Shown one piece after another: positions 21,841 through 45,809 of a stretch of DNA of 64,000 nucleotides. How positions within the stretch are numbered: the stretch's first letter is position 1; every line of letters begins with the position of its first letter. The stretch is from Prochlorococcus marinus CUG1433. GTDB taxonomy: Bacteria > Cyanobacteriota > Cyanobacteriia > PCC-6307 > Cyanobiaceae. The stretch lies in the NCBI GenBank assembly GCA_017644425.1, contig JAEPLN010000001.1:1488001-1552000 (forward strand), given 5' to 3'. The translations under genes were made by a program, and so were the position numbers. The notes beneath the pieces were generated by a model. It worked only from the letters and a program-made list of their open reading frames with translations. It searched no databases and was not told where the DNA came from.

Positions 21841-21932
21841 CAGTTAAAATCTGGAAGCTTACTTGAAATTTTCATGTAAGAATTAGGTAATTGAGAGATT
21901 GTTTTTAGCTAAGAAACAATCTCTTTTTTTTT
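21841..21932 (+). ncRNA. Candidate small RNA or structured 3' UTR
   Basis: Two strong hairpins lie in the 208-bp gap after the last plus-strand orphan. The first is CTTACTTGAAA-T-TTTCATGTAAG (about 21859-21881, one internal mismatch, so a small loop). The second is a 10-bp terminator stem with a long T-run. Spacing and terminator are typical of small cyanobacterial RNAs, but a 3' UTR of the 71-residue gene is equally possible. No promoter was identified with confidence. Confidence 0.4.
21894..21931 (+). terminator. Rho-independent terminator
   Basis: Perfect stem AGAGATTGTTT / AAACAATCTCT with loop TTAGCTAAG followed by eight or more T. Confidence 0.85.
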
Positions 21933-22008
21933 ATAAATTTTTTTTCATAAAAAAGTGTTTGTCAGTATCCCTATTGACAAACACTCATGACGATCAAATT
22001 TTTAAAAA

Positions 22009-25209: not shown

Positions 25210-25515
25210 CTAATTACCTAAACCTAGAGGAGCCCAAAGAGTTGCTTCAGAACCTATAACAGGGACAATCCCTGTAGTTTTTGAATTAGAAACTTTATTT
25301 TTAACAATAGGAGTATCTTGTTCTCCTAAAGCTGCCCATAAAGTTGATTGATGAGCGATAACTGGTTGAACTTTTAATGGTTGAGATTGAAAAGAGGGCT
25401 TTTGGGTTCTTATAAGTTGGACTCCAAGAGAACCAACAATAAATGCTCCAAGAAAGCCTGCAAATACAGCAGTAATATTGTTACTACTTACTGAGGTAGA
25501 TACGTTATTAGACAT
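25210..25515 (-). CDS. Small membrane-anchored protein under a glutamine-riboswitch-like leader
   Basis: 101 residues from the ATG at 25515. A hydrophobic helix ITAVFAGFLGAFIVGSLGVQ lies near the N-terminus. The tail contains an internal repeat, VIAHQSTLWAALGEQ and VIGSEATLWAPLGLGN, so it carries two copies of a (S/A)TLWAxLG motif. Family unknown. The preceding 40-100 bp forms a glutamine-riboswitch-like structure and the transcript ends at a strong terminator, so this is a single-gene regulated unit. Confidence 0.72.
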   Translation of the reverse strand: MSNNVSTSVSSNNITAVFAGFLGAFIVGSLGVQLIRTQKPSFQSQPLKVQPVIAHQSTLWAALGEQDTPIVKNKVSNSKTTGIVPVIGSEATLWAPLGLGN

Positions 25516-25552
25516 AATAGTTATGTGACTAAATTTCATTTTTGACTGAAGT

Positions 25553-25604
25553 CCCCGTTCCTTGGCTTCAATCTTAATGCGGCTCGTAAAACGAGATGAA
25601 CGTT
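25553..25604 (-). promoter_or_regulatory. Glutamine riboswitch-like leader (glnA/downstream-peptide motif)
   Basis: Reading minus: P1 arm CGTTC (25598-25602), ATC, hairpin TCGT-TTT-ACGA, then a linker ending CCAAG, and P1 partner GAACG (25556-25560) followed by GGG. The CGTTCATC ... AAGGAACG frame is the hallmark of the glnA and Downstream-peptide RNA motifs, which bind glutamine and precede small genes in marine picocyanobacteria. An alternative stem (25544-25551 with 25566-25573) would compete with P1. It sits about 40 nt before the small membrane protein. Confidence 0.75.
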
Positions 25605-25608
25605 TATT

Positions 25609-25622
25609 GTAGTCTACGCTAC
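25609..25622 (-). promoter_or_regulatory. NtcA-type site overlapping the likely -10 element
   Basis: GTA-N8-TAC (25609-25611 and 25620-25622). On the minus strand it includes TACAAT, a good -10 placed 6-7 bp before the riboswitch start. A site in this place would repress, as NtcA does at gif genes, rather than activate. Binding is inference. Confidence 0.45.
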
Positions 25623-45398: not shown

Positions 45399-45511
45399 TT
45401 TAGGAGATATTAAAACCTTATTTATACTATCTATTCAATATTTATTTTTTTGAGAAAAAATTTAGTAAAAATTACTCTCGCAGAATTATTTTAAAGATGT
45501 TATCGTTCACT

Positions 45512-45566
45512 AACGTTCATCCAAGTTTATATCTCTGGACGCATGAAATGGGAGTAAGGAACGGGA
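45512..45566 (+). promoter_or_regulatory. Glutamine riboswitch-like leader (downstream-peptide motif)
   Basis: P1 arm CGTTC (45514-45518), ATCC, then TCTCTGGACG, ATGGGAGTAAG, and P1 partner GAACG (45559-45563) followed by GG. The CGTTCATCC ... CTGGACG ... GGGAGTA-AGGAACG skeleton matches the Downstream-peptide/glnA RNA motif closely. A second CGTTC at 45504-45508 could compete for P1. It lies 23 bp before a 56-residue gene with its own terminator. Confidence 0.8.
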
Positions 45567-45588
45567 TTCTCATTAACTGCAAAAAACC

Positions 45589-45759
45589 ATGAATAACCTC
45601 TTACAAATAAGAGAAAAAATCAAAAGAGCTAATAGGCTATATGAAGCCCAGCTTTTGGCTACAAAAAGTGGAGAAGTTACTCCATACAGAAGATCCGTCT
45701 TCGAAGAAAGAATCAGGCAAACTCAAAAGGAAATTAAATTGAAAGATTCAAAAAATTAA
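45589..45759 (+). CDS. Small basic protein controlled by a glutamine riboswitch
   Basis: 56 residues: MNNLLQIREKIKRANRLYEA then QLLATKSGEVTPYRRSVFEE. Basic and helical, no Cys. Products of this kind of riboswitch in picocyanobacteria are small proteins thought to tune nitrogen metabolism, so such a role is likely here, but there is no direct evidence. A strong terminator follows. Confidence 0.8.
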   Translation: MNNLLQIREKIKRANRLYEAQLLATKSGEVTPYRRSVFEERIRQTQKEIKLKDSKN

Positions 45760-45783
45760 ATTTTTTTTTGTAACTGATTAAAA

Positions 45784-45809
45784 AAGAGGGATAAATCCCT
45801 CTTTTTTTC
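45784..45809 (+). terminator. Rho-independent terminator
   Basis: AGAGGGA-TAAA-TCCCTCT followed by seven T, 25 bp after the riboswitch-controlled gene. Confidence 0.88.

Follow-up and report, generated by a model that had tools for sequence, protein, structure and literature searches.

A glutamine-sensing leader, an open reading frame (ORF) of 56 codons and a terminator hairpin follow one another on the forward strand of the 64,000-nucleotide stretch of Prochlorococcus marinus CUG1433 DNA analysed here (the window; Table 1). The leader at 45511–45573 is a Glutamine-II (downstream-peptide) riboswitch, and it stands before a member of an unnamed, real small-protein family. Another riboswitch of the same class lies elsewhere in the window, on the opposite strand, together with its own ORF.

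Table 1. Features of the two riboswitch loci in the window (positions are those of the window)
Feature	Position	Strand	Basis or remark
Conserved upstream element ACTCTCGC	45474–45481	+	Candidate promoter or regulator site
TGTTAT, possible −10 element	45498–45503	+	Leader comparison
Duplicate CGTTC of the original prediction	45504–45508	+	Same offset in 17/100 parsed leaders
Glutamine-II riboswitch aptamer (RF01704)	45511–45573	+	Rfam cmscan, 46.0 bits; P1/P2 covariation in 71 homologous leaders
Pseudoknot 5′ strand CGUUC	45514–45518	+	Pairs with 45559–45563; 5 pairs, invariant
P1 segment	45519–45540	+	Same as natural P1 of the crystallised Gln-II RNA
P2 5′ strand	45548–45555	+	Alignment A2
Pseudoknot 3′ strand GAACG	45559–45563	+	Alignment A2; crystal numbering of PMC6698751
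P2 3′ strand	45566–45573	+	Alignment A2
Start and second codon AUGAAU	45589–45594	+	Complementary to GUUCAU at 45515–45520; minimum-energy fold
56-aa basic protein ORF	45589–45759	+	Family without Pfam or NCBIfam match
Intrinsic terminator hairpin, 12 bp, with U run	45780–45807	+	−14.2 kcal/mol, z −3.9
Other Glutamine-II riboswitch of the window	25546–25605	−	Rfam, 64.9 bits
109-aa ORF behind the other riboswitch	25210–25539	−	ORF following the 25546–25605 switch
NtcA-type box GTA-N8-TAC	25609–25622	−	Just upstream of the other riboswitch

The Rfam score of the leader exceeded the gathering score of 33 bits, and with an E value of 5.2e-8 for the whole window a chance match is excluded; the same stretch scored no more than 22.7 bits with the glutamine-I model. 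The original prediction had recognised a glutamine riboswitch motif at 45512–45566. All three sequence segments that it quoted occur in the window, and the covariance search that it proposed as a check returned RF01704 above the cut-off; the range itself was too short, leaving out most of the P2 3′ strand. The element shares its covariance model, pseudoknot, P1 and P2 with the Glutamine-II class, including the crystallised RNA of 'Prochlorococcus sp. RS01'. The natural P1 of that RNA is AUCCAAGUUUAUAUCUCUGGAC (Huang et al. 2019, PMC6698751), the DNA form of which has a single occurrence in the window, at 45519, with letter-for-letter identity over 45519–45540. Judged by this string, the aptamer is not new and is already CRYSTALLISED, its P1 being that of the crystallised RNA. 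The RS01 string is common to many orthologues in our leader alignment, so strain identity with RS01 need not follow. The crystal structure shows glutamine bound by this class (PMC6698751), and manual mapping of that paper's numbering onto the window showed that all the nucleotides in contact with glutamine or framing it (C1, G2, G18, C19, C39 and G40) are kept, at 45514, 45515, 45541, 45542, 45562 and 45563.

Covariation was assessed in alignment A2, which holds 71 distinct leaders taken from intact and parsed homologues only. Over P1, P2 and the pseudoknot, 98.0% of cells were paired and 70 cells were compensatory, with both sides changed; none of 500 shuffles reached either value, a significance that the shuffles overstate because the rows of the alignment are related. 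Two further counts were not exceptional: five pairs with a double change (equalled by 79 of 500 shuffles) and 19 further pair types (equalled by 274 of 500). P1 and P2 show compensated variation. The pseudoknot is invariant, so that covariation speaks neither for it nor against it. A short ORF follows the aptamer, as it does behind the Gln-II RNA of the 2010 discovery paper, which gave ORFs of 17–100 aa (PMC2864571). Unlike the ORFs tied to the class in the review PMC6316151, the ORF of the window is not of the DUF4278 type.

The encoded protein, MNNLLQIREKIKRANRLYEAQLLATKSGEVTPYRRSVFEERIRQTQKEIKLKDSKN, is basic as predicted (14 K+R against 7 D+E; pI 10.3), and the predicted terminator downstream of it was borne out by the fold of the hairpin and its stability relative to shuffled sequence (Table 1); a simple scan for terminators returned none on the + strand of the window. 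The ORF is conserved as coding sequence, with a dN/dS of about 0.28 among 38 distinct close orthologues, and residues M1, N2, L4, A20, G28, Y33 and F38 are invariant in alignment A1, composed of 37 hand-chosen family members. Pfam and NCBIfam returned no family for the protein up to E 10, and the DUF4278 profile (PF14105) did not match it over the curated cut-off. An AlphaFold2 model consists of two helices, at residues 3–27 and 35–55 (pLDDT 83, pTM 0.38). Foldseek found no match to this model in the PDB up to E 10, and a profile search of solved structures gave nothing below E 0.8.

Relatives of the protein were detected (E ≤ 1e-3) in 90 of 400 genomes of the taxonomic family, a set drawn from a larger group, and in 11 of 59 genera. 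Sixty of the 68 same-genus genomes listed carry it, and the best 80 of 181 relatives in named genomes comprise 76 from Prochlorococcus and four from uncultured Synechococcaceae, by their titles. We located 112 copies of the gene, not counting the weak rows G346, G350, G040, G093 and G369 and one overlapping G282 row; 105 are intact (with a start codon and 40 aa or more), and 100 leaders could be parsed with both pseudoknot strands. Switch and ORF are tightly linked: 97 of the 105 intact copies carry the Gln-II core (CGTTC and GGAACGG) at aptamer spacing, and some of the eight that lack it look like single motif changes. When 20 loci were picked and submitted to Rfam's own cut-off, 17 passed, with L089, L105 and L108 falling below. 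Seven copies of the gene are broken, and three of these (L044, L087 and L094) keep the riboswitch core.

The original prediction called this unit the second of its kind, which holds within the window; the genome (1.70 Mb, four contigs) contains seven RF01704 matches over the cut-off. It also held that one sensor type drives two different small proteins. The two are indeed different, as no BLASTP alignment at E ≤ 100 joins the 56-aa protein to the 109-aa protein behind the first switch, but the statement fell short of what is there, namely seven ORFs of at least four kinds. DUF4278 ORFs of 33 and 57 aa stand behind two switches and are the only two DUF4278 matches of the genome (Pfam); two more switches precede 33-aa ORFs with a YRG motif and without a DUF4278 match; one precedes the 109-aa ORF; and the last two precede 56-aa paralogues, the target and L006 (C3:18619), which are 76% identical over 55 residues. 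At least one RF01704 match was found in 260 of 266 genomes of the genus. The palindrome GTA-N8-TAC, which we take to be the NtcA consensus, lies 4–6 nt before the aptamer in five of the seven switches, against a background of 15 sites in the 64 kb window. The strict form is absent before the target and L006 switches, and among 100 parsed homologous leaders seven have it, all from outside the genus of the window. Elsewhere in the window, at 21857–21939, lies the small RNA Yfr19 (RF02366, 97.8 bits).

Upstream of the aptamer, ACTCTCNC occurs within 150 nt in 54 of the 105 intact homologues, and the longer ACTCTCGC occurs once in the window. In 87 of the 100 parsed leaders, TGTTA is found no more than 25 nt before the CGTTC of the aptamer; a simple promoter scan found no promoter on the + strand of the window, so that TGTTAT is, from the comparison of leaders, a possible −10 element. 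Directly 3′ of this hexamer lies the duplicate CGTTC, for which a role as an alternative P1 strand had been suggested. That suggestion is unsupported on two counts: the aptamer's own CGTTC is a strand of the pseudoknot and not of P1, and the duplicate is not conserved. A broader version, in which the duplicate competes as a strand of either P1 or the pseudoknot, can draw on the 41 nearest leaders at that offset, of which 17 have CGTTC and 16 more have TGTTC, which could wobble-pair. Set against this are its low frequency among parsed leaders overall (Table 1), its absence from the paralogue L006 and its position abutting TGTTAT, where it may sit at or before the start of transcription. We consider such competition highly improbable and rejected the duplicate as an alternative strand for want of conservation across the family; it probably lies outside the switch.

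How the switch would act on the ORF was examined by computed folding. Huang et al. (PMC6698751) suggested in general terms that an alternative structure of Gln-II RNAs occludes the ribosome binding site. In the minimum-energy fold of 45511–45605, P1 and P2 are kept and GUUCAU is paired with AUGAAU at the start of the ORF, using the same strand that the pseudoknot needs. The start-region pair probability was 0.65 in the native leader, compared with a mean of 0.055 when 42 other ORF starts (those of the window's mechanical ORFs of 100 aa or more) were grafted behind the same aptamer; one of the 42 reached 0.65, and the 14 that begin with ATGAA had a mean of 0.13. When the tail of the target was shuffled with the ATG kept, the mean was 0.12 and three of 30 shuffles equalled the native value. 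The start codon was unpaired with a probability of 0.34, rising to 0.95 when CGUUC was kept unpaired as a stand-in for the pseudoknot. The leader as a whole was no more stable than its shuffles (z 0.32), and no clear Shine-Dalgarno sequence was seen in it. Across the family, start pairing of at least 0.2 was obtained for 34 of 47 distinct leaders of the genus Prochlorococcus and for one of 24 outside it, and hiding of the start codon is thus proposed for the clade only. At least one of the inner five start-region pairs is lost in 17 of 71 leaders.

The proposed mechanism is as follows: without glutamine, GUUCAU (45515–45520), which includes part of the pseudoknot 5′ strand, would pair with AUGAAU (45589–45594) and hide the start codon, with P1 and P2 retained in a three-way junction. 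Binding of glutamine would then lock CGUUC onto GAACG in the pseudoknot and so free the start codon. The element would most likely be a translational ON switch, by which the basic, helical 56-aa protein is made when glutamine is plentiful. The direction is taken from the review PMC6316151, which, citing Klahn et al. 2018, reports for a type 2 (downstream-peptide) switch of a Prochlorococcus strain that glutamine binding activates expression. We give a probability of roughly 70% to the whole of this reading, a Gln-II translational ON switch that yields the 56-aa protein at high glutamine, including the hiding of the start codon, which we infer from computation and within one clade.

The principal competitor keeps the Gln-II switch and replaces its OFF state, either by another pairing, such as that of the P1–P2 linker CAUGA with the start codon, or by control of mRNA stability or of transcription. 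Synechococcus-like homologues do need a different OFF state, and CAUG is common in the linkers of the subfamily and able to pair with the start codon (six pairs, 75.8% of cells paired). The same degree of linker–start pairing was reached, however, in 262 of 500 shuffles, for which reason we rejected it as the OFF state, and a scan found no terminator between aptamer and ORF. For the target we regard a different OFF state as unlikely, if distinctly less so than competition by the duplicate CGTTC, and retain hiding of the start codon by the pseudoknot strand.

The function of the protein is approached here by analogy. Glutamine synthetase is controlled by small proteins, and NtcA represses their genes gifA and gifB (PMC7760959). 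In the gifB/IF17 system of Synechocystis, as at the target, a glutamine-sensing leader precedes a small-protein gene, which glutamine activates there as it would here; the aptamer of that system is of type 1, in which it differs (PMC6316151). A diverged inactivating factor of the IF7/IF17 type would fit the similar control, by a glutamine riboswitch and, for five of the seven switches of the genome, a preceding NtcA-type box. It would also fit a protein that is small, basic and helical in the model, and a phage relative (below) with DUF4278-like motifs such as the N-terminus of IF17 has (PMC6316151). Against this, the target itself lacks the NtcA-type box, and a profile comparison with nine IF17-like proteins, taken as such from their DUF4278 start and their length, detected no similarity (hhalign probability 0.3%), on which ground homology to IF17 was rejected. 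A second group of DUF4278 proteins was compared with the 56-aa family and likewise showed no similarity. Descent from such a factor is accordingly improbable, somewhat more so than a different OFF state, and to go by its sequence the 56-aa protein is not a glutamine synthetase inactivating factor. It may still act as those factors do, as a small partner protein by which nitrogen assimilation is damped, a weaker inference than that of the switch.

Part of the protein appears to be shared with cyanophages. The target matched positions 1–25 of the phage family phrog_545 (PHROG) at E 0.005, and L006 did likewise at 7e-4; the match covered those positions alone and not the whole 55-aa profile, of which positions 27–54 match the DUF4278 ORF of locus L001 (3.5e-6). 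When profiles of 37 host members and 16 phage members (alignment A3, from 56 distinct phage proteins) were aligned with hhalign, the probability was 96% and E was 4.7e-9 for that single comparison, and the alignment extended to residue 41. The cyanophage proteins thus resemble the 56-aa protein over an N-terminal module of about 25 homologous residues, and in the loci examined their genes also stand behind glutamine-type aptamers. They differ in their second half, which bears YRG motifs and is DUF4278-like below Pfam's cut-off. That host and phage proteins have this N-terminal module in common appears to be a new observation. A tblastn search with one phage protein returned 372 phage records, GenBank/RefSeq duplicates included, which by name are 315 Synechococcus, 53 Cyanophage and four Prochlorococcus records. 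Searches of phages and viral contigs from the host side gave no match at E ≤ 1 by tblastn of the target and none to a leader pattern; a pattern for the 56-aa unit had 219 matches in the viral collection, none confirmed, and the leader yielded a single weak blastn match, to an Acinetobacter phage. In S-SZBM1 (L118:1370–1599) the DUF4278-like part and the helix module lie in reversed order as two overlapping ORFs, the second unannotated.

Just upstream of the phage module gene there is another small gene, termed gene A and detected in 307 records. We examined 87 phage loci (L118 and L123–L208), which are isolates and viral contigs: the best 80 of at least 588 confirmed matches plus seven isolates, a selection biased mostly towards near relatives of S-CAM22. 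In 79 of the 87, CGTTC-ATCCC or a variant stands before gene A, whose final codons and stop lead into GGGACGCA..CGAC-stop-AGGAACGG; a stricter, first form of the pattern had fitted 73, and the second form that fitted 79 corresponds to 65 distinct segments. In all 79, the reading frame stays open between an ATG no more than 12 nt from CGTTC and that stop. In these loci the two halves of a glutamine-type aptamer appear to flank a whole ORF, which would be held in the loop of P1. All seven isolates fetched (S-SZBM1, S-CAM22, S-SM2, S-SCSM1, S-SSM5, P-RSM1 and S-RIM2) show the enclosed ORF. Five of the eight loci that did not fit (L150, L153, L174, L178 and L190) have 200 nt or less before the match, and the other three (L180, L188 and L198) are changed or shortened versions. 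All four pairs of the enclosing P1 are standard in 79 of 79 loci; four of 2000 shuffles did as well. Covariation in this helix is thin: 64 loci have one form, 13 differ by a G-U pair alone, and two have matched double changes (ATCCT with AGGA; ACCCC with GGGG).

Gene A has a further aptamer in front of it, whose P1 is an ordinary hairpin in 73 loci; this aptamer occurs there in 38 distinct forms, and the first three P1 pairs are standard in all 38. In L134, L138, L151, L187 and L189 this first aptamer also appears to enclose an ORF, of about 66 aa; L187 and L189 are identical across it, and L134 and L138 have only three clear P1 pairs. The phage aptamers differ from that of the window in scoring below Rfam's cut-off, at which none was reported in 20 loci. 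Sub-threshold matches of 20–30 bits were obtained in L118, L123 and L124, and none in L125 up to E 1.

Glutamine riboswitches have been mentioned in T4-like cyanophages (PMC9602691, PMC9964418) and one in a methylophage (PMC9004378), and DUF4278 is discussed in the review PMC6316151. Within the limited coverage of the literature consulted, neither the shared module nor an aptamer with an ORF in its loop was found described, a weak negative. From the arrangement of these loci, it is conceivable, at somewhat under even odds, that picocyanobacteria and T4-like phages share a glutamine-sensing peptide circuit, in which the phage carries two successive aptamers, the second (in a few contigs both) enclosing an ORF, and mimics a nitrogen regulator of its host. 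With a complete ORF within the P1 loop, such an aptamer would have its folding coupled to the translation of that ORF.

How marine picocyanobacteria regulate glutamine synthetase is unclear according to the review PMC6316151, and a tractable entry point is offered by a conserved family of small proteins that is tied to a glutamine sensor, one such sensor having been crystallised. The connection with phages is a bolder lead than the switch of the window. For a riboswitch, an ORF enclosed by the aptamer would be an unusual arrangement, and the shared module makes it testable whether cyanophages tap the same glutamine signal; if so, the phage would read glutamine and make a mimic of the host's nitrogen regulator.
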